DNA from: Caldifarciminota bacterium
Lineage (GTDB): Bacteria > Hydrothermota > Hydrothermia > UBA1063 > CAJXJZ01
Direction: 5' to 3'
Length of the DNA stretch: 54,449 bases
NCBI GenBank assembly: GCA_026986775.1
Contig: JALSNX010000009.1
Coordinates: forward strand, 1 to 54,449
Shown here piece after piece: positions 572-49,265 of the stretch. The first letter of the stretch is position 1. Each line of letters starts with the position of its first letter. Below the pieces are notes generated by a model, which saw only the letters and a program-made list of their open reading frames with translations, was not told the origin of the DNA and ran no database searches. The position numbers were made by a program, and so were the translations under genes.

Positions 572-599
572 TTTACGTTCGTCATTGTTCTTTTAAACT
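572..599 (+). promoter_or_regulatory. Putative promoter of the DegT aminotransferase gene
   Basis: A -10-like TAAACT (594-599) ends six bases before the ATG at 606. TTTACG (572-577) lies 16 nt upstream as a weak -35. There is no Shine-Dalgarno sequence, so transcription would begin at or next to the start codon. Confidence 0.4.
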
Positions 600-605
600 A
601 TCCTG

Positions 606-1784
606 ATGATGAAGGTTCCTCTTTCAAGACCTTATAAAACAGAGAATGCTATTGAATATATACGGGATGTTATCTCAAGTCCTTACATAAGTTCCGGGCC
701 TTACATAAAAAGATTTGAAGAATACATAAGCAAAATAAGCGGAGCAAAGTACGCTGTATCCTGTTCAAGTGGCACAGCGGGTCTTCATCTCGCTGTGAAA
801 GCACTTGGTATAGGAGATGGTGACGAGGTTATCACAACGCCATATTCCTTTATTGCCACATCTAATGTGATTCTCTACGAGAGAGCAATGCCTGTATTTT
901 GTGATGTTGAGCCTGAGCATCTCAATCTCTCCTATGAAAGGGTTAAAGAGTGTATAGAAAAGACCTATATATGGCATGATGGAGCACTTAAAAATAGATA
1001 TACCGGTAGGATTCTCAAAGCAATAATGCCTGTTCATATATATGGTTATCCTGCAGATATGAAAGGGTTTATTGAACTTGCAGAAAAGTATAACCTTAAA
1101 GTTATTGAAGATTCAGCAGAGGCACTTGGAAGTTATATAAGCATCAACGGTAGGATGCACATGGCAGGCACAATTGGTGATGCTGGGATTTATGCTTTTT
1201 ACGCAAATAAGCAGATTACCACGGGGGAGGGTGGAGTGGTTGTTACAAACAATGTGAAAATCAGAGACTATGTGCTGTCAGTTAGAAATCAGGGACGTTC
1301 ACTTACTTCCAGCTGGCTTGTTCATGAAAAAGTGGGATACAATTACAGAATGTCCGCTTTAAATGCCGCACTTGGTCTTTCCCAGTTAGAACACCTTCCA
1401 GAAATAGTAAGTAAAAGGAGAGAAGCATTCAAAAGATACGAAGAACTTCTCAGAGAAGTGGATGAAATAGAACTCTTCAGAGAAGAAGATGGCGTAAAAA
1501 CCAACTGGTTTGTATTTGTTATTCGCTTCAGGCATATGGAATTGAGGGATAAGGTGATGAACTATCTTAGAGATAAGGGTATTGAGACGAGACCATATTT
1601 TGATCCTCCACTGCATTTGCAACCTGTTTATAAGAATATTCTGCCTTATAAAAGAGGTGATTTCCCTGTTGCTGAAGAGGCCTCAAAAAGGGTGCTTGCT
1701 TTGCCGTTTTTTACAGGTATAAGCCATGAAGAGCAGATTTACGTGGTCAAAACGCTGAAACAGGGTATCGTAAAGGTGGCATGA
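606..1784 (+). CDS. DegT/DnrJ/EryC1/StrS family sugar aminotransferase
   Basis: PLP-dependent aminotransferase that transfers an amino group to a keto-sugar nucleotide. The 392 residues match the family's usual length. Visible landmarks are SSGTAGLHLAV (about 54-64), the PLP-ring Asp in IEDSAEALG (D169), and the Schiff-base Lys in FYANKQITTGEGG (K202). The ATG at 606 is followed directly by a second ATG at 609 and has no clear ribosome site. It overlaps the next gene by 4 nt (ATGA). That gene is a PglF/WbpM-like 4,6-dehydratase, so the pair probably makes a UDP-4-amino-4,6-dideoxy sugar (a PglF/PglE-like step of bacillosamine-type synthesis) for a glycan. The exact sugar cannot be read from the sequence. 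Confidence 0.9.
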   Translation: MMKVPLSRPYKTENAIEYIRDVISSPYISSGPYIKRFEEYISKISGAKYAVSCSSGTAGLHLAVKALGIGDGDEVITTPYSFIATSNVILYERAMPVFCDVEPEHLNLSYERVKECIEKTYIWHDGALKNRYTGRILKAIMPVHIYGYPADMKGFIELAEKYNLKVIEDSAEALGSYISINGRMHMAGTIGDAGIYAFYANKQITTGEGGVVVTNNVKIRDYVLSVRNQGRSLTSSWLVHEKVGYNYRMSALNAALGLSQLEHLPEIVSKRREAFKRYEELLREVDEIELFREEDGVKTNWFVFVIRFRHMELRDKVMNYLRDKGIETRPYFDPPLHLQPVYKNILPYKRGDFPVAEEASKRVLALPFFTGISHEEQIYVVKTLKQGIVKVA

Positions 1785-3574
1785 GAGTAACAAGTGGCCT
1801 GAGACGATTATTCTTTTTGTTGATGTACCCTTTACTGTGGGCTCTATCGTTGATTTTATCCTTTTACATAGTCGGTATAAGAGTTGATTTTATTTTGTAT
1901 GGTATTGTGTTCTCGGTTCTGTTTGTTTTCAGACTCCTTCTTTTGAACGCCTTTCATCTATTTGATGTAAGCTGGAGGTTTGTCAGCATAGGAGAGGTGT
2001 TTGACCTTGGATTTGCCATGCTTCTTGCTGAAGTACCTGCTATTTTAATGCTCTATCTGGTGGATGTGCCTTTTAACTTGCGTCTATTGGTGGTTGAATA
2101 TATGTTCTCTCTTGTATTCTCTCTAACCTTACTTGCATCCAAACGTTTATATTTAACTTTTCGTGCTGATTCCCAGAGTGTAAGCGGAAAGAGAAAGGCT
2201 GTGCTGGTGGGAGACACGTCAAGAGTAGAGAAATTTTTAAGAACCATGGAGGGGACTCCATCCTCATTTTTTATTGACGGGATTATTGCTACGGATATGG
2301 CACGAAAGGGCGATTTTATTCGTGGAACCCGAATTATAGGGAGTTATGAAGACCTCATGTACATTGTAAAAAACAGACTGTACGATACCATTTATGTGAT
2401 AGGGGATTCTGTGGAGAAAACAGAATTGAGAAAACTCATACGGGAATGTGAGCGTTCAAACATAAGACTGCGTATAATAAGCATTGATATAGCCTATAAA
2501 AACAGTTCCATTTTCACGGTAAGAGATGTTGACACTGAAGACCTTTTATTCAGAGGGGAAATAAAAATAGAACCTGAAGTTATAGAAAAGTTTATTAACC
2601 ACAAAAGCATCCTGATAACAGGAGCTGCCGGGTCAATTGGTAGTGAACTTTCTTATCAGGTGGCAAGATTCACTCCCCTGAAACTCGTGCTCTTGGATAT
2701 TGATGAAACAAACGTGTTTTTACTTTCAGAAAGACTGAAAAAACAGTTCCCGTATCTTGACGTAGATTACTACGTTGCAGACGTTGCTAATGAGGAAAAA
2801 ATTGCCCGAATATTTAACAAAGAGAAGATAGATGTTGTATTTCACGCTGCTGCATATAAACACGTTCCCGTAATGGAAAGATTCCCGGATGAAGCAGTAA
2901 GAGTTAATGTAATAGGCACCTACATTGTAGCAAGGGAAGCCGCAAGAGCAAATGTAAGTCGCTTTATCCTGATTTCTACTGATAAAGCAGTAAAACCAAC
3001 ATCTTTCATGGGAGCCACTAAAAGAATTGCGGAGAAAATAACGATAAGTATGGCAAAAGACTATAAGAACACATCTTTCATCGTTGTGAGATTTGGAAAT
3101 GTTTTAGGTTCACGAGGGAGTGTGGTTCCCATATTCAACGAGCAGATACGCCAGGGAGGTCCTGTTACAATAACTCATCCGGATATGGAAAGGTATTTCA
3201 TGACAACACGGGAAGCCGTTTTACTCGTTTTAGAGGCAGGTTCAATAGGAAAAACGGGAGAAATTTACGTCCTTGATATGGGAAAACCAGTTAAGATTGT
3301 TGAACTTGCAAAGGAACTTATAAGATTGCATGGGCTTGAACCAGATGTTGACATCATGATTAAATTTGTGGGAAAAAGACCTGGAGAGAAGCTAACGGAG
3401 GAATTGTATTCAAACGAGGAAAACCTCAGCAAAACAGAGCTTGAAAAACTACTACGCCTTGTACCAAATGGTGCATATAGCTTTGAATACAGCGAATTTA
3501 TTAAAGAAGTGCGTAAAACCCTCAGGGAGTATGATGAGGAAAAACTTAAAAGATTAATCTGGAGATCTATCTGA
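1781..3574 (+). CDS. Membrane nucleotide-sugar 4,6-dehydratase (PglF/WbpM/CapD family)
   Basis: A 597-residue polytopic enzyme with four hydrophobic segments in residues 8-125, a first nucleotide-binding region near 138-210 and a C-terminal SDR dehydratase domain from about 275. The cofactor loop is TGAAGSIG (280-287). The active-site region has TDKAVKPT and then M410-x3-K414, where classical SDRs have Y-x3-K; this Met replacement is the hallmark of the FlaA1/WbpM/PglF group. The family converts UDP-GlcNAc to UDP-4-keto-6-deoxy-HexNAc. The gene is translationally coupled (ATGA) to the upstream DegT aminotransferase, which would use that product. The length and N-terminal membrane domain fit the long (PglF/WbpM) form rather than soluble FlaA1. 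Confidence 0.9.
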   Translation: MRVTSGLRRLFFLLMYPLLWALSLILSFYIVGIRVDFILYGIVFSVLFVFRLLLLNAFHLFDVSWRFVSIGEVFDLGFAMLLAEVPAILMLYLVDVPFNLRLLVVEYMFSLVFSLTLLASKRLYLTFRADSQSVSGKRKAVLVGDTSRVEKFLRTMEGTPSSFFIDGIIATDMARKGDFIRGTRIIGSYEDLMYIVKNRLYDTIYVIGDSVEKTELRKLIRECERSNIRLRIISIDIAYKNSSIFTVRDVDTEDLLFRGEIKIEPEVIEKFINHKSILITGAAGSIGSELSYQVARFTPLKLVLLDIDETNVFLLSERLKKQFPYLDVDYYVADVANEEKIARIFNKEKIDVVFHAAAYKHVPVMERFPDEAVRVNVIGTYIVAREAARANVSRFILISTDKAVKPTSFMGATKRIAEKITISMAKDYKNTSFIVVRFGNVLGSRGSVVPIFNEQIRQGGPVTITHPDMERYFMTTREAVLLVLEAGSIGKTGEIYVLDMGKPVKIVELAKELIRLHGLEPDVDIMIKFVGKRPGEKLTEELYSNEENLSKTELEKLLRLVPNGAYSFEYSEFIKEVRKTLREYDEEKLKRLIWRSI

Positions 3575-3588
3575 ATTATTAAACTTCT

Positions 3589-3616
3589 AAGACTTCCCTG
3601 CGTTCAGCCTTATAAT
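3589..3616 (+). promoter_or_regulatory. Putative promoter of the PEP mutase-family gene
   Basis: A perfect -10 TATAAT lies at 3611-3616. The best -35 candidate, AAGACT (3589-3594), matches only the GAC core, with a 16-nt spacer. It predicts a leader of about 46 nt that carries the strong ribosome site at 3656-3663. Confidence 0.5.
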
Positions 3617-3668
3617 ATAAATATGCACAATCAAGCATTTGGACAACAATACAAATTGGAGGTTCACA

Positions 3669-4649
3669 ATGCAGGTATGCGATGATTTCGCAACAAGGGC
3701 AAACAGGTTTCGCAGCCTGATCAAGGGCGATGGACTGGTGCTGAGGCCATGTGCTTATGATGCTCTCTCTGCCATAATGATAGAAAAGGCTGGTTTCAGT
3801 GTAGTGGGTACCACAGGATATGGAATATCTGCTTCCCTGATAGGGCAACCTGATATAGGTCTCGTTGGTTATGGGGAGATGGTGGAAAGGGTTAGAACCA
3901 TTGTAAATGCTGTGAAACTTCCCGTGGATGTGGATGCTGACACAGGATACGGAAACGCCATGAATGTGTACTGGACTGTTAAAAATTTCGCAGGTATAGG
4001 GGCATCGGGAATAAGAATTGAGGACCAGGTGTGGCCAAAAAGATGTGGGCATATGGAAGGGAAACAGATTATTCCAACAGAAGATATGGTGAGAAAAATA
4101 CGAGCAGCCGTTAAAGCCAGAGACGAAGAAAACCCTTTCATGATAGTAGGTGCAAGAACCGATGCAAGAAGCGTGCTTGGTTTTAAGGCCGTGATAGAGA
4201 GGGCAAAGGCCTATGCAGATGCCGGTGCAGATTATATTTATGTGGAGTCGCCGGAATCCATGGATGAGGTTGAAACACTCGTTCGTGAGATTCCGGTACC
4301 TGTAGCGTTTAATATAATACCCGGTGGCCGCACTCCACCCTTCACACTTAAGCAGCTTGAGGACGCAGGTGTAAGGTATCTATCCGTTCCCATGGTCTGT
4401 CTTTATCCTGCTGTAAAGGCCATGCAGGAGGCCCTTGAAGCCCTGAAAAACAGAGATCTGGAGACGATGGTAAAACTTGGAGTTTCATGGAGAGAATTCA
4501 ATGAAATAGTTGGGCTTTCTGAATGGAGAAGGCTTGAACTGGAACTTCTTCCTGAAAATGAACTTAAGGAAAGATATGGGACATCGGACATTGATGAGAT
4601 AATGAATAGAGAAAAAAGTAAAACCGAGGCGAAATGGACTAAAAAATAG
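3669..4649 (+). CDS. Isocitrate lyase/PEP mutase superfamily carbon-carbon lyase
   Basis: A 326-residue TIM-barrel enzyme of the PEP mutase/isocitrate lyase superfamily. It has DVDADTGYGN (Mg-binding Asp residues) and KRCGHMEGK, the catalytic-Cys loop typical of the lyases (methylisocitrate lyase, dimethylmalate lyase, carboxyphosphonoenolpyruvate mutase-like). The Cys loop favours a lyase over a true mutase or an oxaloacetate decarboxylase, but the substrate is open. The start is ATG 3669, not the earlier in-frame codon at 3639, because TTGGAGGT at 3656-3663 is correctly spaced. It is a single-gene unit bounded by a promoter at 3611 and a hairpin terminator at 4669. No methylcitrate-cycle neighbours (prpC/prpD) are visible. 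Confidence 0.85.
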   Translation: MQVCDDFATRANRFRSLIKGDGLVLRPCAYDALSAIMIEKAGFSVVGTTGYGISASLIGQPDIGLVGYGEMVERVRTIVNAVKLPVDVDADTGYGNAMNVYWTVKNFAGIGASGIRIEDQVWPKRCGHMEGKQIIPTEDMVRKIRAAVKARDEENPFMIVGARTDARSVLGFKAVIERAKAYADAGADYIYVESPESMDEVETLVREIPVPVAFNIIPGGRTPPFTLKQLEDAGVRYLSVPMVCLYPAVKAMQEALEALKNRDLETMVKLGVSWREFNEIVGLSEWRRLELELLPENELKERYGTSDIDEIMNREKSKTEAKWTKK

Positions 4650-4668
4650 TCCGCTTTTCTGCCATCCT

Positions 4669-4707
4669 GCACCCCGGAGGGCTCATGCCCTCCCTTTGTG
4701 CTTTTTT
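4669..4707 (+). terminator. Rho-independent terminator
   Basis: GGAGGGC (4676-4682) pairs with GCCCTCC (4687-4693) around a TCAT loop. An outer GCAC/GTGC pairing (4669-4672 with 4698-4701) and six T (4702-4707) follow. The last T residues are also the start of the asnS -35 box. Confidence 0.85.
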
Positions 4708-4734
4708 GACCGATTGTCCTTCTTAATTTAAAAT
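4706..4734 (+). promoter_or_regulatory. Promoter of asnS, predicted leaderless
   Basis: TTGACC (4706-4711), a 17-nt spacer, TAAAAT (4729-4734), then six bases to the ATG at 4741. No Shine-Dalgarno sequence fits between promoter and start, so the predicted mRNA begins at the start codon. Confidence 0.75.
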
Positions 4735-4740
4735 TTAAGT

Positions 4741-6048
4741 ATGGCAAAGTGGGTTTATATAGAGGACTTAAAATCTCACATTGGTGAAGAAGTTGAAATA
4801 AGGGGCTGGCTTTATAACAAGCGCAGTTCTGGTAAGGTTAAGTTCCTTATTTTACGGGATGGTAGTGGCTTTGTTCAGAGCGTCATGGTTAAAGGAACTG
4901 TACCTGACGAACTCTTTCAGCAGTTTAAAGATCTGACTCTTGAATCGTCCATTGTTCTTGTTGGAACTGTTAGAGAAGAAAAAAGAGCTCCTGGTGGAGT
5001 TGAGTTAGACGTAAAGGACTTTAAGATAATTCAGAAGGCAGTTGACTATCCTATTCCGAAGGTTAGAGAGGAAAATATTCCTGATGTGGGAGTTTTATTA
5101 CCAAAAAGACACTTGTGGCTCAGGTCAAAGAAACAATGGGCTTTATTAAGGATAAGGGACACCATAGAAAAGGCTATAGAGGACTTCTTTCATGAAAAAA
5201 AGTTTGTCAGAATAGATTCTCCAATACTTACACCATCAGCCTGTGAAGGAACTACCACACTATTCAAAACTGACTATTTTGGTGAACCCGCTTACCTTTC
5301 CCAGTCCGGTCAACTTTATGTTGAGGCTGCCTGCATGGCTCATGGAAAGGTATATTGTTTTGGGCCGACATTCCGTGCAGAAAAATCAAAGACCAGACGA
5401 CATCTTATGGAATTCTGGATGGTTGAGCCTGAAATAGCATTCTTTGAACTGGATGATATTATGGCACTCTCTGAAGAGTTTGTTGAATATCTTGTAAAAA
5501 GGGTTTTAAATGAGAGAGAAGAAGAATTATCAATACTCGGTAGAGACGTTAAAAAGCTTGAAAAAATAAAGAGACCTTTTGCAAGAATTACATATGATGA
5601 TGCCGTCCGTATTCTCAAAGATAGGAAAATGGAATTTGAATGGGGTGATGATTTTGGGGGTGATGAGGAAACAGCCATTTCTGAGGCCTTTGAAACTCCT
5701 GTTATAATCCACAGATATCCTGCCAAAATCAAACCCTTCTATATGAAGCGGGACCCTGATAATCCCGATGTGGTGCTTAACATGGATATGCTTGCACCGG
5801 AAGGTTATGGAGAAATTATAGGAGGCTCACAGAGGGAAGACGATTATGACACTCTATTAAAGAGATTTGAGGAGGAGAACCTTCCGGTAGAAGATTATAG
5901 ATGGTATTTAGACCTCAGAAAGTATGGCTCTGTGCCTCATAGTGGTTTCGGACTTGGCATTGAAAGAACCATTGTCTGGATTTCTGGAATAAGGCATGTG
6001 AGGGAATCCATTCCTTTCCCGAGATTACTTGAAAAAATTTACCCTTAA
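4741..6048 (+). CDS. asnS: Asparaginyl-tRNA synthetase
   Basis: Charges tRNA-Asn. It is a class IIb synthetase of 435 residues with an N-terminal OB-fold anticodon domain (about 1-105, containing EIRGWLYNKRSSGKVKF) and a catalytic core. Motif 2 is FRAEKSKTRRHLMEFW; motif 3 is GFGLGIERTIVW followed by RESIPFPR. The YLSQSGQLY stretch is typical of AsnRS and archaeal-type AspRS. A separate bacterial-type aspS lies at 49269, which supports AsnRS here. The start ATG at 4741 follows a promoter directly (see 4706-4734). The small gene at 6064 follows after 15 nt, probably in the same unit. Confidence 0.93.
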   Translation: MAKWVYIEDLKSHIGEEVEIRGWLYNKRSSGKVKFLILRDGSGFVQSVMVKGTVPDELFQQFKDLTLESSIVLVGTVREEKRAPGGVELDVKDFKIIQKAVDYPIPKVREENIPDVGVLLPKRHLWLRSKKQWALLRIRDTIEKAIEDFFHEKKFVRIDSPILTPSACEGTTTLFKTDYFGEPAYLSQSGQLYVEAACMAHGKVYCFGPTFRAEKSKTRRHLMEFWMVEPEIAFFELDDIMALSEEFVEYLVKRVLNEREEELSILGRDVKKLEKIKRPFARITYDDAVRILKDRKMEFEWGDDFGGDEETAISEAFETPVIIHRYPAKIKPFYMKRDPDNPDVVLNMDMLAPEGYGEIIGGSQREDDYDTLLKRFEEENLPVEDYRWYLDLRKYGSVPHSGFGLGIERTIVWISGIRHVRESIPFPRLLEKIYP

Positions 6049-6063
6049 GGAGGCTTTTGTAAG

Positions 6064-6384: not shown

Positions 6385-6388
6385 GCGT

Positions 6389-11319: not shown

Positions 11320-12204
11320 TTACTGGCCACTTGTGTACACGGTAACAGACAGGTTTCCTTTGTTGTCAAAACCAAAACCTGTTTTTAATGCACCTTTATC
11401 AATAATAAAACCAAAGGTTATTAATTTATCCTCTGAATCTGTTAGATATCCAAAAGATAATGCCCCTTTCCATCCATGTGGTTCATAGGGAATATAGAAT
11501 ATAAGTCCGCCCTTCAGGGCGCTGTGCAAACTGGCCGAGTTTTTCTCATATTCTCCAGCGATGTGTAAATGGTCATTGAAAAGGTGTAGCCCCAGTGTGA
11601 GAAAGAATTTAGAAGGCAACCGTTCTTTTGTGGTATCTTCCCACCATAGCTGACCGTATAAATTATTGTATGCAGCACCAAAAGAAAAACTGTTTGCCTT
11701 TACGTAAATACCTACATCCTGGGTAAAGCCCTTTGCAAAGTCAAGTATAACGGTCGGGTTTATAGAATCTGAATAAGCATGAGCATACAATGCTGTCAGA
11801 TATTTTAAATTAACTCCTAAAGAAGTGGATTTACTGGATGATGCAAGGGAAATTGTGTATTCTGAATACCTCTCTTTATCAATAAGGTAGGGTGAGCTTC
11901 TCTTAATATCAATTGCAAATACTTTTCTGTAGTACAGGGCAAATTTTGGTGTAACTATACCCCACAGAGGAGATTTGGACCTGCCCAGTGTATCCACATA
12001 GAAAGTAGGATTACTACGTGGGCTTTGGGTGCTAAAGGCAAAAATATTTCCCAGCATACCTAAAAGTGCTGGATTGTCGTATGATGATGAAATTGCTAAA
12101 GGACTGTGGACAAATCCCGCTGCCATATAGTCTCCGCCGAGAAGGTTATCAAAATAAACACTTCTGGGAAAATAGGCCACAAGTAGTAAAAACAGTTTAA
12201 GCAT
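11320..12204 (-). CDS. Putative outer-membrane beta-barrel protein, PorV/UPF0164-like
   Basis: Predicted to sit in the outer membrane. A hydrophobic signal segment (LKLFLLLVAYF) is followed by alternating amphipathic strands rich in Tyr, Phe, Gly and Ser. The early AISSSYDNPALLG resembles the dasaiyyNPAgla block at the start of PorV/PorQ/UPF0164 barrels. I chose ATG 12204 (294 residues) because TATAAT sits just upstream (12217-12212); the longer GTG start at 12237 would lie before that -10 box. PorV-type proteins act in type IX secretion, which would suit the two Por-tailed proteins in this window. The family call is by pattern, not by alignment. Confidence 0.6.
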   Translation of the reverse strand: MLKLFLLLVAYFPRSVYFDNLLGGDYMAAGFVHSPLAISSSYDNPALLGMLGNIFAFSTQSPRSNPTFYVDTLGRSKSPLWGIVTPKFALYYRKVFAIDIKRSSPYLIDKERYSEYTISLASSSKSTSLGVNLKYLTALYAHAYSDSINPTVILDFAKGFTQDVGIYVKANSFSFGAAYNNLYGQLWWEDTTKERLPSKFFLTLGLHLFNDHLHIAGEYEKNSASLHSALKGGLIFYIPYEPHGWKGALSFGYLTDSEDKLITFGFIIDKGALKTGFGFDNKGNLSVTVYTSGQ

Positions 12205-12211
12205 GAAGAAA

Positions 12212-12239
12212 ATTATAAAATCGGAGCCCCGAAACACAA
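12212..12239 (-). promoter_or_regulatory. Putative promoter of the PorV-like/trpS/ribE/xerD unit, predicted leaderless
   Basis: On the minus strand, TATAAT (12217-12212) ends seven bases before ATG 12204. TTGTGT (12239-12234) lies 16 nt upstream as a weak -35. No ribosome site is present. Confidence 0.5.
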
Positions 12240-12258: not shown

Positions 12259-12287
12259 TTGAATGAGCCCGCCTGTTAAGTTATACT
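12259..12287 (+). promoter_or_regulatory. Promoter of the small secreted protein gene
   Basis: TTGAAT (12259-12264), 17-nt spacer, TATACT (12282-12287). It gives a leader of about 20 nt that contains AGGAGG (12302-12307) before ATG 12314. Confidence 0.65.
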
Positions 12288-12976: not shown

Positions 12977-13028
12977 ACTCTGGTAAACGCACACAATTCT
13001 TTATTGTTTGAAAAACTGGTGGGGTTAG

Positions 13029-13034
13029 TATAAA
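13029..13034 (+). promoter_or_regulatory. Putative -10 element for sppA-purB-acyl-CoA synthetase unit
   Basis: TATAAA at 13029-13034 ends nine bases before ATG 13044. TTGAAA at 13008-13013 is a -35 candidate with a short 15-nt spacer. No Shine-Dalgarno sequence is visible, so the leader would be only a few bases. Confidence 0.4.
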
Positions 13035-13043
13035 ATTAAGAGC

Positions 13044-17799: not shown

Positions 17800-17894
17800 G
17801 TAAGTTTCAGGATAACACCTGAGGTGCAATCATTATATTTTCTGAAAGTTTTGGTTTATAATAATTAAAACGTTACCACACAAGGAGGTGAGAA

Positions 17895-24700: not shown

Positions 24701-25041
24701 TCAATATGTATTCCTTCTCCTGTGTATTTATAGGCAGTTTTTTTCACTGAAAAGGGCACAGGGGATGGTGTCATCTGAATATCAACGTTTTTTACAACTT
24801 GAGAATATGTATAATTCAGCACCTTCATTTTTACGGGTTGTTCCTTCAGATAAAAACGCTTTATAACAACAGGTATGTCGTAAAATTGAGGCACTCTAAT
24901 GGCATTAATGGTCGGTGAAGTCTGGACGTGTACTTTCTGCCCATCTTTTCTTATCAGATAATCACTATCTGAAAATCTGATAAGAAAAGTTTGTGATGCG
25001 AACTGAAGCAGTAAAGTTATAAAAACAGAGACATAATTCAT
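21787..25041 (-). CDS. Secreted gingipain-like C25 cysteine peptidase with Por secretion tail
   Basis: A large exported peptidase, 1084 residues from ATG 25041. A signal peptide (MNYVSVFITLLLQFASQ) is followed by a propeptide-like region, then the C25 caspase-like domain starting near EPLYLIVSTDSI. The catalytic His is in NHDGHGWW (H403 in this numbering) and the nucleophile is in YSIGCWVGAFD (C441). Several beta-sandwich domains follow, including a carbohydrate-binding-like domain around WQRTTTRSHSGNYS. The last 80 residues form a type IX sorting tail (IFVFDVNGRKLLSRKL, MPGLYFVIVSQNNEKIVKK). The in-frame TTG at 25077 cannot be the start: it is the -35 box of a perfect promoter. Probable role: extracellular protein degradation or processing of other secreted proteins. 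Confidence 0.9.
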   Translation of the reverse strand: MNYVSVFITLLLQFASQTFLIRFSDSDYLIRKDGQKVHVQTSPTINAIRVPQFYDIPVVIKRFYLKEQPVKMKVLNYTYSQVVKNVDIQMTPSPVPFSVKKTAYKYTGEGIHIEYPAYLADVRKENGIYIANVIIFPFKYDKKERILLKLDSCNIEFELHSGTVTSRKAYDEPLYLIVSTDSIIHGFDSLALWKKQKGYRVKLLSMEEIDTTYTGLDSAEKLRNALKEYYADSGLMYVLLGGDVDKVPARIAYAMTCNAGYRDDEDSIRADLYYSDLDGTWDFDGDGIYGEVEDSVELYPDVYVGRVPVDNIEEARNFSRKLINYEQHPTQRADNALFFAMILWNDDPYPYTNSGESKDYIDTTFMPEYYEITKLYEALGNETYESVTSALKEGQGILNHDGHGWWTGMWLNGSPSWEHLSNEDADTLKMAFSGVLYSIGCWVGAFDREDAISEHFVLNPDGPVAMIANSRYGWGSPGNPLYGYSDKFDHNFYRKIFIDSVFHVGMTLAEDKADYIPLSHWKNVYRWHQYQLNLFGDPEMEIHTRYEGDVLSNFPLYLHPGGTVSFSVYDTTGRVLSGARVSLSYGDSVYVVAQTGFSGAASITVPENIPDSMLLLIYARNHRTLIRWVYNSGTVLAENFEILNNDSASYFYPDETGTLKINFRNLTGSSISDFYVKLTGNNITFAQDSVVIEDTVLPDSTFSITVGFSIPSNLADSDKISFTVENSWGSRTFIRYIKKPHVLLRPRSPVNLVTEGVDTFELVIYNAFSYDLFNVVVYIQSASGITPYQDSIMTGTIHAHDSVVIGFSGYVSDSIVNIEYRIKNNAFLDDTVSISYGLNPGKYLFDFETSMDGFYFTGNWQRTTTRSHSGNYSVWSGISGHYANNAHDTLMTPWIKTGYSPVLSFYMWYDAATYGTDGVHIYYNVNNAWRELDYLGSGGALMDKSFIVGWSEYRYLLEGLGYGDSTRIMFVLITDDSDTAEGFYIDDISVNSVSYSSKEENPHYGFYVAMPSIINTRSLSFEYKLKKAPSIFVFDVNGRKLLSRKLKSKKGRANIDLGEIMPGLYFVIVSQNNEKIVKKVVVER

Positions 25042-25048: not shown

Positions 25049-25077
25049 ATTATAAGGCTCTGATCATAAAATTTCAA
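25049..25077 (-). promoter_or_regulatory. Promoter of the C25 peptidase-hisS-endonuclease V unit, predicted leaderless
   Basis: On the minus strand, TTGAAA (25077-25072), 17-nt spacer, TATAAT (25054-25049), then seven bases to ATG 25041. It is a near-consensus housekeeping promoter with no room for a ribosome site. Confidence 0.8.
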
Positions 25078-28799: not shown

Positions 28800-29923
28800 G
28801 TATATTCTGGATTTTGCCGTTTGTTTTTGTGTTATTCTATCTTGCGGGTTCAGGTCCACAGGCTTTTATTGGTACAACCTTCCTGCTTGTTCCCTTTGCA
28901 AAGGAATTCCTGTCCTATGGAATTTCCACACCATTGTTCTTCCTTTTAAGCGGGGTGCTTATGGGTGCAATAAGAAATAATACTTCTTCTCTTCTTCTAA
29001 AAGAAGTATTTGAAATCTCCACGTTGTTTCTTGCCTATGCTGCCAGTTATGAGTTTACTTCAGCCCTTAAAAAGCATTCTCTGGCCATTATAAGCAAGAG
29101 AGTGCTTGCTGAATTCGTGATTGTTCCCCTTCCATTTGTAGTGTATTTTCTTTTACTTGGTCTGGATTTAACTTTTGCTCTGGTGCTTTCTCTTCTGTTT
29201 CTCTCAATTTCTCCCATTACATCCATGATTCTACTTTATGAATCTCCCATAGAAAAAAAACTAAGGGAAACCATAGAAGGAGGAATTATTTTTCGGGACG
29301 GATTACAGATATTGCTCCTCATAGTCGCAGCACACTTCGTATTTCGTGGTGCAGAAGATGCATCAAGAGGACTTGTAAAGGCCATTTTTATCGCTCCTTT
29401 CCTGGGTTTATTTCTTGCAACAGGAAGTACCCTGAGTAGAAAAGGGACATATCTATTCCTTCCTGTTGCAATTGTTATTGCCATTTTGCTGGAAATGTAT
29501 CTGCACATCTCTTCTATTTTCCTCATGATTTTTGCGGGGTTCTGGGAAAGAGTTTCAGAGCGAAAAGCTCGTCCAGCTTTCAGGGTTATTGATATGGGAA
29601 AAATCCTTTATCCATTCGTTTACACATACACGGGACAGTTAATGGTTACTTTTTCTATTTCAGTATTTTTAGCCGGGTTTGTTGCACTTTCTATAAAGGT
29701 TTTATCTGAATATACTGCCGCAGTGATTTCAAAATGTCATAACAAAAAAGTTGATATTTCAGTAAAAATTCCAATGGCAGGCCTATCTCTCCACCACCTT
29801 ATTTACTTTAAAGACAGTATCGCCCCATTTATTTTTTCCATAATAGCATTTGTACTAATTGCAAGTGAGTTCCTTGCACCGCTTTTGCTCTCATCTTTAA
29901 AAAACGTAAAGGAAAAAATATAA
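28796..29923 (+). CDS. Antiporter-like polytopic membrane protein (divergent CPA2 type), subunit 2
   Basis: A 375-residue membrane protein with about eleven hydrophobic helices. FLSISPITSMILLYESPIEK corresponds to the sSTsxxvxxxLxE region of CPA2 antiporters, and GGIIFRDGLQILLLIVAA to the following helix with its conserved Asp. Like its neighbour it lacks the canonical STD motif, though the Asp in FRDG is kept. ATG 28796 overlaps the previous stop; the long upstream extension of the frame overlaps subunit 1 and is not coding. The pair look like distant paralogues. The mazG promoter sits in its last codons. Confidence 0.7.
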   Translation: MSIFWILPFVFVLFYLAGSGPQAFIGTTFLLVPFAKEFLSYGISTPLFFLLSGVLMGAIRNNTSSLLLKEVFEISTLFLAYAASYEFTSALKKHSLAIISKRVLAEFVIVPLPFVVYFLLLGLDLTFALVLSLLFLSISPITSMILLYESPIEKKLRETIEGGIIFRDGLQILLLIVAAHFVFRGAEDASRGLVKAIFIAPFLGLFLATGSTLSRKGTYLFLPVAIVIAILLEMYLHISSIFLMIFAGFWERVSERKARPAFRVIDMGKILYPFVYTYTGQLMVTFSISVFLAGFVALSIKVLSEYTAAVISKCHNKKVDISVKIPMAGLSLHHLIYFKDSIAPFIFSIIAFVLIASEFLAPLLLSSLKNVKEKI

Positions 29924-29924
29924 T
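29896..29924 (+). promoter_or_regulatory. Putative promoter of mazG, predicted leaderless
   Basis: TTTAAA (29896-29901), 17-nt spacer, TATAAT (29919-29924), then six bases to ATG 29931. It overlaps the end of the preceding coding region. Confidence 0.55.
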
Positions 29925-36170: not shown

Positions 36171-36251
36171 TTGCTTCCTCCTTTTTGATTTTTAATTATA
36201 CCACAGTTTGAGCGTAAAAAGGAAAGGACGTATATTCCGTGAGAAAAAGAG

Positions 36252-36257
36252 TATAAT
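36252..36257 (+). promoter_or_regulatory. -10 element of the ABC_ATPase gene, predicted leaderless
   Basis: TATAAT at 36252-36257 ends six bases before ATG 36264. No convincing -35 is seen and there is no ribosome site. Confidence 0.5.
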
Positions 36258-39112: not shown

Positions 39113-39118
39113 ATTATA
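39113..39118 (-). promoter_or_regulatory. Putative -10 element of the GT4 gene
   Basis: TATAAT on the minus strand (39118-39113), 10 bases before ATG 39102. The -35 is not recognisable. Confidence 0.4.
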
Positions 39119-39182
39119 CAAGATGTCCTGCGAACCCTTAAATAAAAGCAAATCATACTTTTTCACCGAACATTCCCAATAA

Positions 39183-39205: not shown

Positions 39206-39232
39206 GATCATACGCATTTTACAAGGTAAAAT
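39204..39232 (+). promoter_or_regulatory. Promoter of the paired aldehyde dehydrogenase genes
   Basis: TTGATC (39204-39209), 17-nt spacer, TAAAAT (39227-39232). It gives a leader of about 30 nt with AAAGGAGGT before ATG 39268, so this unit is not leaderless. Confidence 0.65.
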
Positions 39233-42516: not shown

Positions 42517-42537
42517 TCCTGTTCTTCGCCTTATTAT
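42510..42537 (+). promoter_or_regulatory. Putative promoter of the RmlD-like gene, predicted leaderless
   Basis: TTGTTT (42510-42515), 16-nt spacer, TATTAT (42532-42537), then seven bases to ATG 42545. No ribosome site. Confidence 0.5.
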
Positions 42538-42544
42538 TCATTAC

Positions 42545-43937: not shown

Positions 43938-44890
43938 AAAAGGCTGTGCTGTTCGTACTGGGATTTTTATTCTCAGTGAATTTTCTTGGGGCAAAGGAAT
44001 TTAAGATAGCAACCATAGATATGCAACGTGTTATGAAGGAATACAGGGACCTAAATGACGCACGAAAAGACATGGCAGAATACGAGAGAGAGTGGAGAAA
44101 GGTGCAGGACAGCCTGTATTCTGAATTGCAGCGTAGAAAGAATGAGTTTGAAAAGAAAATCCCAATGCTCACACCTCAGGGTGTTCTTGATGAACAGAAA
44201 AAGATAGAAGAACTTGAAAAAGAGTACAATGATTATGTTAAAAAAATATGGGGAGAGGGAGGGGAATACAGCAGGAAACTAAAGGAAATAACCCGCCCTT
44301 ATCTTGAAAAACTGTATGAGACGATAAATAAGCTGGCAGAAGAGGAAGGTTACGAACTGATTATTGATAAATCTGCCAGATTTGTGATATACGCAAAGAA
44401 TTCACTTGACATAACCGATGAAGTTCTTGATTATCTCAATAAAGAATATGTTGCAACTGCGCCAGCAGAGAGAAAAAAGGTAATTGCTGTTTTCCCTCTC
44501 CTTGAAAAGGATAAAGATGTAAAGACCATGGGATTGGGTATGAGAAGCCAGGAAATAATTATTGCTTCTCTTAAAAATTCACCCAATTTTGACGTTCTTC
44601 CCCAGGGCTCTGTTAATGGAAGGATGAGCAGTATGGGTATACGTCCTGAAAATCTCAATGAATCACAGGCATCGCAGGTAGCAGCAGTTCTCAATGCGGA
44701 TTACTTCATCATAGGTGAAATCTCCAAGCAATCTCAGGGAATTAAATTTATACTTAGTCTTTACGATACACGCACAATGCAGAAGATAAACAGTCTTGAA
44801 AACATTGCTGAAAATGCAGAGGAGATTCTGGAACAGAAACTCGCAAACAAAGCCCGCCAGCTGATTACCCCAATAGTTCCCGAAAACTGA
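43934..44890 (+). CDS. Skp/OmpH-like periplasmic chaperone fused to a CsgG/FlgO-like domain
   Basis: A 318-residue exported protein. Residues 1-20 are a signal peptide (MKKAVLFVLGFLFSVNFLGA). Residues 22-170 match Skp/OmpH: KIATIDMQRVMKEYRDL, a long charged coiled coil, and the closing EEEGYELIIDKSA. Skp shields outer-membrane proteins in the periplasm. Residues from about 180 form a second domain with VIAVFPLLEKDKD and VLNADYFIIGEISKQ, resembling the CsgG/FlgO/TolB-N fold in which two strands frame a helix and an ADYxIxG strand. I know of no such standard fusion. ATG 43934 overlaps gmhA (ATGA). Confidence 0.75.
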   Translation: MKKAVLFVLGFLFSVNFLGAKEFKIATIDMQRVMKEYRDLNDARKDMAEYEREWRKVQDSLYSELQRRKNEFEKKIPMLTPQGVLDEQKKIEELEKEYNDYVKKIWGEGGEYSRKLKEITRPYLEKLYETINKLAEEEGYELIIDKSARFVIYAKNSLDITDEVLDYLNKEYVATAPAERKKVIAVFPLLEKDKDVKTMGLGMRSQEIIIASLKNSPNFDVLPQGSVNGRMSSMGIRPENLNESQASQVAAVLNADYFIIGEISKQSQGIKFILSLYDTRTMQKINSLENIAENAEEILEQKLANKARQLITPIVPEN

Positions 44891-44927
44891 CATGAACTAT
44901 TAATTATGAGGAACCACATAAAAAACG

Positions 44928-44933
44928 TATAAT
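44928..44933 (+). promoter_or_regulatory. -10 element of ispG, predicted leaderless
   Basis: TATAAT at 44928-44933 ends six bases before GTG 44940. The -35 is poor. No Shine-Dalgarno sequence. Confidence 0.5.
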
Positions 44934-44939
44934 TTAAGC

Positions 44940-46010
44940 GTGACACCAAAAAGAAAACCTACAAGAACCGTTAAGGTCGGAAATACAGCAATAGGAGGAG
45001 AAAACCCTATAAGGGTTCAGTCTATGACCTCCACACGCACCACTGACATTGATTCCACAGAAAAACAGATACAGGAACTTGTGGAGGCAGGATGTGAACT
45101 GGTAAGAATATCCATACCTGATCTGAAAAGTCTCAAAGCATTTGAAATCATCAGAAAAGATTTTCCTCATGTGCCCCTGATTGCAGATATCCATTTCAAT
45201 CACAGACTTGCAATTCTCTCCATAGAAAAGGGAGCAGATAAAATCAGAATTAACCCCGGGAACATCAATGATAAAAAGAAAATAAACGAGATTATAGAGG
45301 CGGCAAGGATTAACAAAAAATCTATAAGAATAGGTGTAAACTCCGGCTCACTTGAATCTGACATTATTGATAAATATAACGGGGTTTTTCCTGAAGGACT
45401 GGTTGAAAGCGCTTTAAGATGGATAGACTATTTCACATCAAGAGATTTTTATGACATTGTTATTTCTGTAAAGTCAAGCTCCGTGCCGGATACCATAAAA
45501 GCATATAGTTTACTTTCAAAGAAAACCGACCTTCCACTACATCTTGGAGTAACAGAAGCAGGACCTTTTCTACCCGGGACTGTAAAATCTTCAATTGCAA
45601 TGGGTTATCTTTTACATGAAGGTATAGGCGATACAATAAGAGTATCTCTTACAGATAATCCTGTAAAAGAGGTGGAAGTTGCATGGGAAATTCTAAAATC
45701 TCTTGAAATACGGTACAACGGCCCCCTGCTTATATCATGCCCAACCTGTGCAAGGACGAGGGTAAACTTGATGAAAATTGTTGAAGATGTAAATAAAATG
45801 TTGAAAAAACACACGATACCCATCAAAGTCGCTGTTATGGGCTGCGAGGTCAACGGCCCTGGAGAGGCAAAGGATGCAGACATAGGAGTGGCCGCTGAAC
45901 CCGGCTACGGGCTAATATTTATAAAAGGTAAGGTTGTTAAAAGAGTAAAAGAAAACGAAATAGTTTCAGCCATTGAGGAAGAAATTATTAAAATGGAGGA
46001 ACATAAATGA
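44940..46010 (+). CDS. ispG: 4-hydroxy-3-methylbut-2-enyl diphosphate synthase
   Basis: The [4Fe-4S] enzyme that converts MEcPP to HMBPP in the MEP isoprenoid pathway. The 356 residues match the short bacterial form. N-terminal IRVQSMTSTRTTDID and ADIHFNHRLAI belong to the TIM barrel; the cluster ligands are in SCPTCARTRVN and VMGCEVNGPGEAKDADIG. It would feed UppS and the UbiA prenyltransferase in the window. It starts at GTG 44940 immediately after a TATAAT box and overlaps the next gene (ATGA). Confidence 0.95.
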   Translation: MTPKRKPTRTVKVGNTAIGGENPIRVQSMTSTRTTDIDSTEKQIQELVEAGCELVRISIPDLKSLKAFEIIRKDFPHVPLIADIHFNHRLAILSIEKGADKIRINPGNINDKKKINEIIEAARINKKSIRIGVNSGSLESDIIDKYNGVFPEGLVESALRWIDYFTSRDFYDIVISVKSSSVPDTIKAYSLLSKKTDLPLHLGVTEAGPFLPGTVKSSIAMGYLLHEGIGDTIRVSLTDNPVKEVEVAWEILKSLEIRYNGPLLISCPTCARTRVNLMKIVEDVNKMLKKHTIPIKVAVMGCEVNGPGEAKDADIGVAAEPGYGLIFIKGKVVKRVKENEIVSAIEEEIIKMEEHK

Positions 46011-47218
46011 ATATCATAGCCTATCTTGTTTACTTATTTGCTGCATACTCCTATACTCCGGGGACAGTATCTCCCGAATACTATGTACTGGGACCGGGTG
46101 ATAAAATCATGATTGTCAGCAAATCCACTGGAGCTGCAATAAAAACCGCAGTTTCTCCAGATGGCAAGGTTCCAGTATATGCCCCATGGTTATCTCAGGT
46201 GGATAATGAGAGCGGGAGCTCTACAGATTACCAGCAACCAAAAGCATTCCTTGTTTCAGCAATAGTAAACGGAAAAGGTTTAACTTTAAAACAATTTTCA
46301 GACACCCTGAGTTACTATATTGAAGAAATATCCGGAAAAAAGGATTCCTTCAATGTCATGCTCATCTCACCAAGAATGGTATCCATTGAGATTTCAGGAG
46401 CTGTATATCATCCTGGAATATATACGCTTCCTGCCAATTACACTGTATCAGATGCCCTGTGGAGTGCAGGTGGGCTCATGGGAATGGCTTCATATTCTGC
46501 TATTGCACTTATATCAGGGCATGATACGGTTAGAGTGAACCTCAGTACCTTTGACCTCCTTGATGATCCGAACAATAACAGAAATATATCATCTTTTCAG
46601 AAGGTATGTGTACCTTTTATCAATCGTGATAGTTCTGTATATATTGTAGGTGATATTTCTACATATCCTCTTTCTTCCCCAACTTTTATACCTCTGGGCG
46701 GAGATACAACGATGTCTGCCTTTTCCATAAGAAGTCGTGCTATTTCATTGCCATTATTCAAATCTTCACCGATAAGCAATATACTGAGTGGACCTGTTGG
46801 GAAAAACCTTACTATAAAAATAATGGATAACAGGATTTTTGTGAAGAGAAACGGTAAAATTAAAAAAGTTAATTCACCCTCCTTCACTATAAATCCGGGA
46901 GATTCTCTTTTTGTGTTTCCACTGTTTAGGGGTGTTCTTGTTGCCGGTGAGGTCATGCGTCCGGGCACTTTGATACCCTTTGTTGAAGGAGCGTCTGTTG
47001 ATTACTATATCTCAAAAGCAGGCGGCAAGTCACAGTTTGCAGGTCCTGTGAAAATATTGAGGGGCTTTAAACTCATAGGTATCTCAAGAACAACCATACC
47101 TGAAGATGGTGATGTAATTATAGTAAAGTACTCACGAACAAAGAGATTTGCAGAGTACGTGGCAATACTTCAGGGGATTATAACACTATTGACACTGTAC
47201 TTTGCCTATTCCAAATAG
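46007..47218 (+). CDS. Polysaccharide export protein with SLBB domains (Wza-like)
   Basis: A 403-residue exported protein. A short hydrophobic start (NIIAYLVYLFAAYSY) and EYYVLGPGDKIMIVS open a Poly_export domain; then come SLBB repeats, ISGAVYHPGIYTLPANYTVS (about 130-150) and VAGEVMRPGTLIPFVEG (about 310-330), and a C-terminal hydrophobic helix (YVAILQGIITLLTLYFAY). Proteins of this type form or line the outer-membrane channel for capsule or EPS. No lipobox Cys is present, unlike Wza. It is coupled to ispG (ATGA). Its tail overlaps the deacetylase gene opposite by 33 nt. Confidence 0.85.
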   Translation: MNIIAYLVYLFAAYSYTPGTVSPEYYVLGPGDKIMIVSKSTGAAIKTAVSPDGKVPVYAPWLSQVDNESGSSTDYQQPKAFLVSAIVNGKGLTLKQFSDTLSYYIEEISGKKDSFNVMLISPRMVSIEISGAVYHPGIYTLPANYTVSDALWSAGGLMGMASYSAIALISGHDTVRVNLSTFDLLDDPNNNRNISSFQKVCVPFINRDSSVYIVGDISTYPLSSPTFIPLGGDTTMSAFSIRSRAISLPLFKSSPISNILSGPVGKNLTIKIMDNRIFVKRNGKIKKVNSPSFTINPGDSLFVFPLFRGVLVAGEVMRPGTLIPFVEGASVDYYISKAGGKSQFAGPVKILRGFKLIGISRTTIPEDGDVIIVKYSRTKRFAEYVAILQGIITLLTLYFAYSK

Positions 47219-47959
47219 CCTCTTATACAACGGAGTAAGAGAAGCAAATGATGCAACTATTCGGTTCCTCAGAAGATACATGTGACAATACTTTTTATTT
47301 AGAAGGGGCAGAGGAGAGCGGTCAATAAAATACACAGCCATTCTCCGAATAGCAAATCTGTTCCTTTTTATTCCTGTAGCAGTTGCAAAGGCATAATCAT
47401 ATCCACATTCAGCAACCATATCCATCACTTTTTTGTTGTACAATCCAAAGGGATAGGCAAAAAGAGATATCCTTTTTCCAAGCAAATCCTCAAGTAATTT
47501 CTTTGAATCACATATTTCCATTTTTAAGGCCTTATCTGAGCACTTTCTGAGGTCCACATGATTAAAACCATGCGAACCTATAATCCAGCCTTTTTTAGAC
47601 AGGTTTATGAGCATATTTTTATCCATGTGCTTTAAACCCCTGAAGGGTGAGAAGTCCCAGGAGTTAAACTTCCCTATATATCCAGCGGGTATAAAGACCG
47701 CACCAATAACGCCATATTTTTCCATTACAGGTAGAGCATAGTTGTAAACCCCTTCATAAGCATCATCAAAAGTAATAAGAACAGCATCTTTTCCATCAAA
47801 GATTGTGTTTTGCGCAATATCTTCATTTGTAAAAAATCTTATTTTATTCCCATACAGAGACTTAATATGTTTTTTAAGTAAATCCTTGCTTATGCTTCTA
47901 AAAGAAAAATCAAAACCATTGGATATATTATGATACATCAATATATTACTGCACCGCAA
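47186..47959 (-). CDS. Polysaccharide deacetylase (NodB-like)
   Basis: A carbohydrate esterase family 4 protein of 257 residues. Catalytic Asp region ITFDDAYEGVYNYALPVMEK, metal His pair in IGSHGFNHVDLR, and LFAYPFGLYNKKVMDM for the later motif. It removes N- or O-acetyl groups from a glycan. The start is TTG 47959, preceded by AAGGAG 8 nt upstream; the first ATG (47938) would remove the start of the domain. No signal peptide is evident. It lies beside an SLBB export gene, which fits exopolysaccharide or peptidoglycan modification. Confidence 0.88.
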   Translation of the reverse strand: MRCSNILMYHNISNGFDFSFRSISKDLLKKHIKSLYGNKIRFFTNEDIAQNTIFDGKDAVLITFDDAYEGVYNYALPVMEKYGVIGAVFIPAGYIGKFNSWDFSPFRGLKHMDKNMLINLSKKGWIIGSHGFNHVDLRKCSDKALKMEICDSKKLLEDLLGKRISLFAYPFGLYNKKVMDMVAECGYDYAFATATGIKRNRFAIRRMAVYFIDRSPLPLLNKKYCHMYLLRNRIVASFASLTPLYKRLFGIGKVQCQ

Positions 47960-48314
47960 ACAAATAACTCCTTGTTTTCATAAAAGAATATATTGCATTT
48001 CATTTTTACAAAGACCAAACATCCCGTGTTTATTATACAGTCCAGAATTCATTTTATAAACTACTGACAGAAACCCCGAATTCTGCCCCTAAATCAATAT
48101 AAAACCATCATGAATACATAACCCACTACGACACACTCAATTACATAGGTTAACATAAGATACATTATGTGATAAAAAATATATGTGCAGGTGGGTTTGG
48201 GGATTGACTTCAGAACCGCACTCTTCTTTGTTTAAGCCTTGATTTGATGTTCTTTCTTGCATTTAAACGGAGCAATGACTTGGGAATCCGATTTCTGTAT
48301 AATAAAATTATATC
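47960..48314. other. Intergenic region with an inverted repeat and the ubiA promoter
   Basis: A 355-bp AT-rich gap between divergent genes, without any convincing frame, tRNA or known RNA. It contains ACATAA-gataca-TTATGT (48153-48170), a perfect 6-bp inverted repeat, and the promoter at 48275-48303. Nothing else is supported. Confidence 0.5.
48275..48303 (+). promoter_or_regulatory. Promoter of the ubiA-aspS unit
   Basis: ATGACT (48275-48280), 17-nt spacer, TATAAT (48298-48303), then 11 bases to ATG 48315. The leader would be about 5 nt, with no ribosome site. Confidence 0.6.
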
Positions 48315-49265
48315 ATGCGAAAAGACTTTGATAAAACCTTGAGAATATATGATTTCTTTTTTCTTTTGAGGCCTGTTTTATTTGTGCCTCTGTGGGCTCC
48401 AATGTTTCTGGGCTATGCAGCTGGTGCTGAGGTGCCTTCATTCGGAATACAACTTCTTCCGGGAAAACTATTCTGGATTAATTTACTCTCCTATACCCTG
48501 CTTATGGGAGCCATATATGTTGTAAATCAGATATACGACAGGGAAAGCGACCTTGTCAATAATAAACTGTTCCTTATCCCCTACGGGATTATAGAAACCA
48601 GGTGGGCATGGATATACTCAGGAATCCTTGTAGTTCTTTCTTTTATCATTGCCATCGTATTCTCCACCTCTGATTTTGTTATAATACTATTTCTTTCCGG
48701 GTTACTGGGTGCAATGTATTCTATTCCTCCTTTCCAGTTAAAGGGAAAACCCTTTCTTGATGCACTTGCAAATGGAATAGGTTATGGAATTCTTGCCTAT
48801 CTTGCAGGATGGGCGAGTGCAACACCTGTAATACCACTGGCACTCCTCTACTCTCTACCTCTGTTTTTCTTTGTTATAGCGGTATTTCTCAACACTACAG
48901 TACCGGATATTGAGGGTGACAAAAAGGCCAATCTCAAAACCTCTGCTGTTTATATGGGAAAAAAGAATACTACAATAGTGGCTTCTGTGTTCATGCTCTA
49001 TGCTCTCGTTAGTGCATTCATTTTTATGGATATACATATTCTCATTTCTTCCCTTATAGGCGTTATTCTCTTTGTTCTTGCAATATTTGATGATTCTGAT
49101 TTTATGAGTAAGGTGTCTTACAGAATTTCATCATTTGTTTTCGTGCTTAGCGTGGCCATTAAATTTCCTTTATTCCTTTTAATGGATATAGCGGTCCTTG
49201 TTCTTTTGAGACTGTATTATGAAAAAAGGTTTTATTATCGTTATCCTACGTTTTTTGGGAGGTAA
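48315..49265 (+). CDS. UbiA-family prenyltransferase
   Basis: An integral membrane prenyltransferase, 316 residues with about eight or nine helices. The first aspartate motif is NQIYDRESD (NxxxDxxxD-like, in helix 2) and the second is DIEGDKKANLKT. These bind Mg-prenyl diphosphate. The acceptor (quinone precursor, heme, glycerol-phosphate lipid or other) cannot be told from sequence. The promoter lies just upstream (48275-48303). It is followed by aspS after 3 nt. Confidence 0.88.
   Translation: MRKDFDKTLRIYDFFFLLRPVLFVPLWAPMFLGYAAGAEVPSFGIQLLPGKLFWINLLSYTLLMGAIYVVNQIYDRESDLVNNKLFLIPYGIIETRWAWIYSGILVVLSFIIAIVFSTSDFVIILFLSGLLGAMYSIPPFQLKGKPFLDALANGIGYGILAYLAGWASATPVIPLALLYSLPLFFFVIAVFLNTTVPDIEGDKKANLKTSAVYMGKKNTTIVASVFMLYALVSAFIFMDIHILISSLIGVILFVLAIFDDSDFMSKVSYRISSFVFVLSVAIKFPLFLLMDIAVLVLLRLYYEKRFYYRYPTFFGR

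Follow-up and report, generated by a model that had tools for sequence, protein, structure and literature searches.

Hexamers Adjoining Start Codons in the Window

The window analyzed here is the whole of a stretch of 54,449 nucleotides (nt), contig C9:1-54449, from the 2.18-Mb draft genome (30 contigs, 98.4% complete) of a bacterium of candidate division WOR-3, a phylum whose current NCBI name is Caldifarciminota. The AsnRS encoded in the window shows 94% identity to that of the candidate division WOR-3 genome L002 and 87% to that of the uncultured bacterium L003. The features in question are −10-like hexamers (boxes) ending a few nt upstream of the start codons of genes devoid of a Shine-Dalgarno (SD) sequence, an arrangement from which a sequence-only reading of the window had predicted widespread leaderless transcripts. 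All eight boxes named in that prediction (degT, asnS, the PorV-like gene, the C25 peptidase gene, mazG, the ABC_ATPase gene, the RmlD-like gene, and ispG) lie where it had placed them and end 6 or 7 nt before the proposed starts, and an SD match of at least 4 bases was found in none of the eight genes. In the following list the gap is the number of nt between box and start codon, and −26 denotes the base 14 nt upstream of the first T of the −10, on which the promoters were aligned.

594–599, plus strand: −10 TAAACT of degT (start 606, gap 6; C at −26, position 580); with two mismatches to TATAAT the weakest of the eight
4706–4711, plus strand: −35 TTGACC of asnS, 17 nt from the −10; TTGACCGATTG is kept in L002 and L003
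4729–4734, plus strand: −10 TAAAAT of asnS (start 4741, gap 6)
12212–12217, minus strand: −10 TATAAT of the PorV-like gene (start 12204, gap 7; C at −26, position 12231)
13031–13036, plus strand: −10 TAAAAT of sppA (Peptidase_S49; start 13044, gap 7; −35 TTGAAA at 13008–13013)
25049–25054, minus strand: −10 TATAAT of the C25 peptidase gene (start 25041, gap 7)
25072–25077, minus strand: −35 TTGAAA of the C25 peptidase gene, 17 nt from the −10; the TTG within it is the start of the longest open reading frame (ORF), 25077
29919–29924, plus strand: −10 TATAAT of mazG (start 29931, gap 6; C at −26, position 29905)
36252–36257, plus strand: −10 TATAAT of the ABC_ATPase gene (start 36264, gap 6; C at −26, position 36238)
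39113–39118, minus strand: −10 TATAAT of the GT4 gene (start 39102, gap 10; C at −26, position 39132)
42532–42537, plus strand: −10 TATTAT of the RmlD-like gene (start 42545, gap 7; C at −26, position 42518)
44928–44933, plus strand: −10 TATAAT of ispG (GTG start 44940, gap 6; C at −26, position 44914)
48298–48303, plus strand: −10 TATAAT of ubiA (start 48315, gap 11; G at −26)
12282–12287, plus strand, leadered contrast: TATACT, gap 26, before the SD-led gene 12314 (AAAGGAGG)
17857–17862, plus strand, leadered contrast: TATAAT, gap 32, before the SD-led frr (17895, AAGGAGGT)
39227–39232, plus strand, leadered contrast: TAAAAT, gap 35, before the SD-led aldehyde dehydrogenase gene 39268

The −35 hexamers of asnS and the C25 gene are located at exactly 17 nt from the −10, as had been predicted, with at most one mismatch to TTGACA, and the same applies to sppA. 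The earlier assignment of sppA, ubiA, and the GT4 gene to a group with distances of 9–11 nt holds for the latter two (gaps 11 and 10), whereas the TAAAAT of sppA lies closer, at gap 7. Strong SD sites had been attributed to the genes at 3669, 12314, 17895, 25174, and 39268, where GGAGGT, AAAGGAGG or AAGGAGGT was indeed found. In six of seven SD-led genes (these five together with 36170 and 31249) the best −10-like hexamer is located 24–35 nt upstream; gene 3669 has merely a hexamer with two mismatches at 13 nt.

Two start corrections had also been proposed. The start at 12204 rather than 12237 agrees with the L003 orthologue, which aligns from residue 1 and has an ATG preceded by TATAAT at gap 7. 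The start at 25041 rather than 25077 is plausible; the longest-ORF TTG at 25077 makes up the initial three bases of the −35 hexamer. The longest-ORF GTG at 12237 (minus strand) lies within a weak −35-like hexamer with three mismatches (12234–12239).

Gene names in the window were taken from the sequence-only reading. Pfam agrees with the names degT, class II (D/K/N) tRNA synthetase, C25, mazG, ABC_ATPase, ispG, RmlD, and GT4, and the C25 gene product matches Peptidase_C25 and Por_Secre_tail; the PorV-like gene has no Pfam match, so that its label is that of the reading. The 3' end of the 16S rRNA (...GGATCACCTCCTTT) is a canonical anti-SD, and a 563-aa protein, ordinary-looking by sequence, has the primary sigma factors RpoD/SigA as its best PDB matches.

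Genome-Wide Excess of Boxes Next to Start Codons

Statistics were collected for about half of the genome (1,097,146 bases). Genes were called by codon hexamers alone, and starts were chosen by coding score without any upstream signal, which yielded 963 genes at first and 966 after a change of the training length; 942 of the 966 had a usable upstream context and the other 24 were excluded. Genes with a divergent neighbor or an upstream distance of more than 60 nt were considered first of a unit and those with a distance of 30 nt or less internal, whereas SD-led genes were defined by at least 5 bases of AAAGGAGGTG located 2–13 nt before the start. The box test scored TATAAT with at most one mismatch at a gap of 5–12 nt, with 200 dinucleotide shuffles as controls. 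A strict criterion required the form TA....T with no more than one mismatch in a gene lacking an SD, and was compared with a control window at gaps of 40–47 nt.

A box was present in 80 of the 179 SD-less first genes, compared to 22.1 ± 4.6 in the shuffles (maximum 35) and to 8/120 SD-led first genes (Fisher 6e-14), which is the enrichment that the sequence-only reading had led us to expect. The gap profile is bimodal: SD-less first genes (178 genes) peak at 6–12 nt, where SD-led first genes (123) have a trough, their peak being at 17–33 nt. Seedless expectation maximization (EM) on the 178 SD-less first genes returned the motif TAtAAT with a share of 0.48 and a top gap of 6 nt, and the log-likelihood gain was 139.8 compared to 27.5–34.8 in five shuffled sets (40 restarts for the real set, 12 for the shuffled ones). 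The same procedure returned AGGAGG for SD genes and no TATAAT-like motif for 180 operon-internal SD-less genes, so that among four groups TAtAAT was confined to the SD-less first genes. Bacteroidetes-type promoters carry TTTG / TAnnTTTG, and this −7 element TAnnTTTG was not returned by the seedless EM.

The strict signal occurs in 74 of the 331 first-of-unit genes (8/331 in the control window) and in 103 of all 942 usable genes (control window 25/942), so that "widespread," as the arrangement had been called, amounts to about 22% and 11%, respectively. It is mainly a property of first genes, since it was found in 70/179 SD-less first genes but in 16/184 operon-internal SD-less ones; 4/32 weak-SD first genes and, by construction, 0/120 SD first genes have it. 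The 69 leaderless-type genes start with ATG (64), GTG (4), or TTG (1), and gap 6 is the commonest single gap (21/69 strict cases).

−35 Partners and the Predicted First Transcribed Base

A −35 hexamer (at most two mismatches) at 17 nt accompanies 24 of 63 leaderless-type promoters and 22 of 52 leadered ones, and any other spacing from 10 to 25 nt is found in 0–7 of the 63. This coupling to a −35 at the right spacing suggests that the box is a promoter element; like the pyrimidine and the −26 C described below, it played no part in the selection of the boxes.

A pyrimidine at −1 and a purine at +1 are typical of transcription starts; a pyrimidine in front of the start codon at gaps 6–7 is therefore expected if the purine of the start codon is the first RNA base. 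Such a pyrimidine is present in 39 of 44 genes with these gaps compared to 65 of 120 SD-led first genes (p 2e-5). The 44 comprise 29 genes with gap 6 and 15 with gap 7. The corresponding counts in relatives are 7/8 in genome G047, 9/10 in named WOR-3 loci, 5/5 in Aminicenantes, 2/3 in Acidobacteria, and 1/1 in L003.

At gap 9 the start codon is preceded by ACT in 7 of 13 genes (7/17 when more box variants are admitted), compared to 7 of 532 other ATG genes, which suggests that these mRNAs begin with ACU-AUG, i.e., with a leader of 3 nt that would start at the A of ACT. In raw counts over nine genomes the ACT-ATG pattern occurs 53 times compared to 16 for its reversal. Examples from the own genome are located at G000:C1:65780-65797, C9:61219-61236, and C20:58364-58381.

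A Cytosine at Position −26

In a standard sigma-70 promoter no base is known to be conserved in the middle of the spacer. The promoters of the genome analyzed here differ in this respect, as 89 of 154 have a C at −26 (background 0.16). The C is common to leaderless-type and leadered promoters (44/69 with gaps 5–12 and 45/85 with gaps 13–45) and recurs in three separate parts of the sample (37/61, 37/69, and 15/24). T is the next most frequent base, purines make up 23/154, and a T at −28 often precedes. The eleven abutting promoters of the window have C in seven, T in three, and G in one case. When TT-N21-TAWAAT was searched, a C was found in 151/279 matches outside genes or at gene edges, compared to 50/238 inside genes, which served as decoys.

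The distribution of the base was assessed by whole-genome counts of TTG-N6-C-N13-TATAAT in relation to the same pattern with G. This C:G count is 106:11 in the own genome, 387:39 in the own family f1 (four genomes), 251:47 in family f2 of the same order (five genomes), and 64:7 in family f10 of the same class (two genomes). Of the other 34 families of the phylum, all but f15 have a ratio of 0.2–2.2, including family f37 (five genomes), where such promoters are frequent and the count is 353:226. Family f15, with one genome (G011), has the sole other strong C excess, 10:1, at few counts. Among 25 named genomes the ratio is 3.4–10.2 in L002, L003, L007, L008, and L009 and 0.6–2.2 in the other 20. 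The C was not seen in the other phyla sampled.

That the C belongs to an extended −35 was rejected because it keeps its distance to the −10 when the spacing is 16 nt: in 34 such promoters, pooled from the own genome and relatives, it remains at −14 from the box (0.56) and not at −13 (0.29). At other spacings the share of C at −14 from the box is 0.44 for 18 nt (n = 9), 0.42 for 19 nt (n = 12), and 0.09 for 20 nt (n = 11). A compensation of weak −35 hexamers, at which the window genes had hinted, was rejected as well, as the C accompanies 35/59 strong and 28/46 weak −35 hexamers at 17 nt. It is found in 73/110 promoters with TT at −35 compared to 16/44 without.

On balance we favor the view that primary-sigma promoters of one WOR-3 clade are tripartite, consisting of the −35, the −26 C, and the −10, and that the new element would be read by the holoenzyme or by a bound factor, or would work by way of a flexible DNA step. 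To our knowledge there is no precedent for a conserved C at −26, and literature searches yielded nothing similar, although these were word searches in which subscription papers were mostly missing and thus are weak evidence of absence. The −26 C is apparently undescribed and in this sense the more novel part of the finding.

Conservation in Orthologues and Other Genomes

The asnS box TAAAAT is kept at gap 6 in L002 and L003. In L003, degT retains TTTTAAACTAT, there at gap 9, the PorV-like gene retains TATAAT at gap 7 despite a protein identity of 55%, and the genes 3669 and 12314 retain their SD. The comparison was extended to pairs of orthologues in which both members have an upstream region of the first type, defined here by a divergent neighbor or a distance above 40 nt; the counts below are given in the order both leaderless-type, leaderless-type and no signal, both SD, both none, SD and none.

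G047, 24 pairs: 4, 3, 7, 8, 2
G051, 11 pairs: 1, 2, 4, 2, 2
G065, 3 pairs: 0, 1, 0, 2, 0
Named WOR-3, 2 pairs: 1, 0, 0, 1, 0
L003, 6 pairs: 1, 1, 3, 1, 0

A switch between leaderless-type and SD was found in none of these pairs; some of the orthologues counted as having no signal have starts that fail to align.

For asnS, 80 loci were inspected, with groups assigned from record titles. The leaderless type is present in 8/9 WOR-3, 2/2 Hydrothermota, 6/7 Aminicenantes, 15/30 Acidobacteria, and 1/2 unclassified loci (L003), and in 0/30 loci of eight other groups; some boxes of high-GC Acidobacteria, such as TATGAT, may be due to chance. In the AsnRS tree the own gene belongs to a supported clade of 12 that are all leaderless-type, and the label requires 5 changes over 81 rows compared to 25.7 with shuffled labels. 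The leaderless arrangement of asnS is thus kept through most of the sampled phylum.

In the gene-anchored test, boxes were found in 10/29 SD-less first genes of G047 (shuffled mean 3.8), 11/34 of G051 (3.4), 25/63 of G065 (5.2), 10/22 of the named WOR-3 loci (2.3), 7/28 of the Aminicenantes loci (1.9, largest shuffle 8), and 15/134 of the Acidobacteria loci (2.1). The contrast between SD-less and SD-led first genes gave p values of 0.015–0.044 in five of seven other sets and was not significant in Acidobacteria (p 0.09). The named sets are not independent of the asnS result, because their loci surround asnS and contain it repeatedly. Small sets, counted without shuffles, gave 0/15 for Bacillota, 0/18 for Nitrospirota, 0/15 for Eremiobacterota, 3/9 for Atribacteria, and 2/3 for Hydrothermota. 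In G065 (L175-L194) the −35 TTGAC is located 16 nt, not 17, from the −10, gaps 5–6 are the commonest, and there is no C at −26.

Proposed Mode of Initiation and Alternatives

We interpret the boxes as the −10 elements of ordinary primary-sigma promoters whose transcripts begin with the A (or G) of the start codon or a few bases upstream of it, and assign to this reading a probability of roughly 0.9. At gaps 6–7 the mRNA would most likely begin with the start codon, and ribosomes would bind the 5' AUG or GUG directly without an SD. At gap 9 the recurrent ACT-ATG would place the start at the A, giving a leader of 3 nt, and over gaps 8–12 leaders of 1–6 nt are possible. The same cell would also make leadered mRNAs, for which the −10 mostly lies 17–33 nt upstream of the start codon with an SD between the two, and SD sites would serve inside operons. 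What the sequence shows is the motif with its spacing, its excess in the genome, its −35 and −26 partners, and its conservation; the 5' ends and the loading of ribosomes without an SD are inferred.

Several observations count against this interpretation or limit it. In leadered promoters (n = 81), A makes up 53% at the seventh base after the box, the expected transcription start, and 41–48% at the neighboring bases. The pyrimidine signal at gaps 6–7 is weaker in G051 (4/8) and G065 (10/15), and in G065 the contrast between SD-less and SD-led first genes is not significant (25/63 vs. 3/13, p 0.21). The excess is weak in G142 of the same phylum (17/59 compared to 9.7 ± 2.5, largest shuffle 18). 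The box of mazG overlaps the stop codon of the preceding gene, with 7 nt between the two genes; a promoter there would lie at an operon joint, which is at odds with the simple form of the reading. Raw whole-genome counts fail to bring out the excess and were rejected as evidence: in the own genome TATAAT-N6-ATG occurs 78 times compared to 19 for the reversed pattern, but TATAAT-N14-ATG occurs 73 times. Raw counts over the phylum, in which TATAAT-N6-ATG outnumbers its reversal in most of 147 genomes but not in all of them, were dropped because the N14 control is equally high in the own genome. We attribute the similarity of the N6 and N14 counts to matches inside genes, so that gene-anchored counts alone are informative. 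Moreover, the start codons come from a simple purpose-made gene finder, and the spread within the phylum is that of the sampled genomes. Finally, the gap range of 6–12 nt is broader than the usual distance from −10 to start, and part of the genes may have short leaders.

The last point leads to a variant in which transcription of most such genes sets in 1–6 nt upstream of the start codon, yielding very short leaders that the ribosome tolerates. Gaps of 8–12 nt make up 37/69 strict cases, and the ACT found at gap 9 puts an A at the usual start distance; but the predominance of gap 6 and the pyrimidine in 39 of the 44 genes are consistent with transcripts that, at gaps 6–7, begin with the A of ATG. 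We consider the variant possible for a majority of the genes, though somewhat doubtful. It might also be that a −10 is mimicked by chance where the DNA upstream of SD-less genes is AT-rich in the service of S1-assisted or structure-free initiation. Such a bias can reflect S1 binding, according to the parts of PMC5397173 consulted, and six S1 domain matches lie in a 589-aa frame of the genome. However, dinucleotide shuffles that preserve composition lose the signal, the hexamer is specific and is joined by the −26 C and by a −35 spaced at 17 nt, and the EM finds no such motif upstream of operon-internal SD-less genes, which makes chance mimicry very unlikely. A third possibility is that starts are miscalled, the boxes being normal promoters and the true SD-led starts being located deeper inside the genes. 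An SD-preceded in-frame start does occur within 40 codons in 10/69 leaderless-type genes, but this is no more than in SD-less internal genes (28/184) and less than in leadered genes (25/85), and asnS, degT, and the PorV-like gene align with their L003 orthologues from residue 1 onward. Miscalled starts are therefore a very unlikely source of the signal, and like AT-richness they were rejected by the EM, shuffle, and internal-SD tests taken together.

Probable Leaderless Genes in WOR-3

Transcription from a −10 next to the start codon, as we propose it here, is not new as a kind. TA-led leaderless genes were detected in 207 of 953 bacterial genomes from many phyla including Acidobacteria (Zheng et al., 2011, PMC3160421), and that survey likewise describes, in the parts consulted, a TA-like signal about 10–12 bp upstream of SD-less genes and a dinucleotide shuffle test; no WOR-3 genome is named in these parts. 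A leaderless mode was assigned by GeneMarkS-2 to 21.6% of bacterial species, as told in the consulted part of PMC9581028. For Deinococcus radiodurans, nearly a third of the genes are of the −10-motif type in the portion consulted of PMC12340547, where Deinococcus-Thermus resembles the present case in a −10 about 6–7 bp before the ORF, leaderless mRNA, SD-led genes alongside, and start corrections. It is another phylum, however, and TANNNT without a −35 suffices in Deinococcus, whereas the motif read here from the sequence is TAWAAT, often accompanied by a −35 at 17 nt, together with the C at −26. In Sulfolobus, as retold in the same parts of PMC3160421, first or single genes are likewise leaderless and distal operon genes SD-led, but the element is a TATA box about 25–37 bp from the start and not a bacterial −35/−10 promoter.

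Literature searches found no report of leaderless genes in WOR-3, these being word searches with subscription papers mostly missing. As leaderless genes with an adjoining −10 are already established in other bacteria, the WOR-3 lineage is a further case of a known kind. With it, a deep uncultured phylum would join the bacteria that mix leaderless and SD-led mRNAs. The arrangement would also supply a rule for the correction of gene starts there, namely that the start of the longest ORF may lie within the −35 hexamer, as at 25077. The −26 base would add an independent, lineage-specific marker of real promoters, and it raises the question of what reads it.

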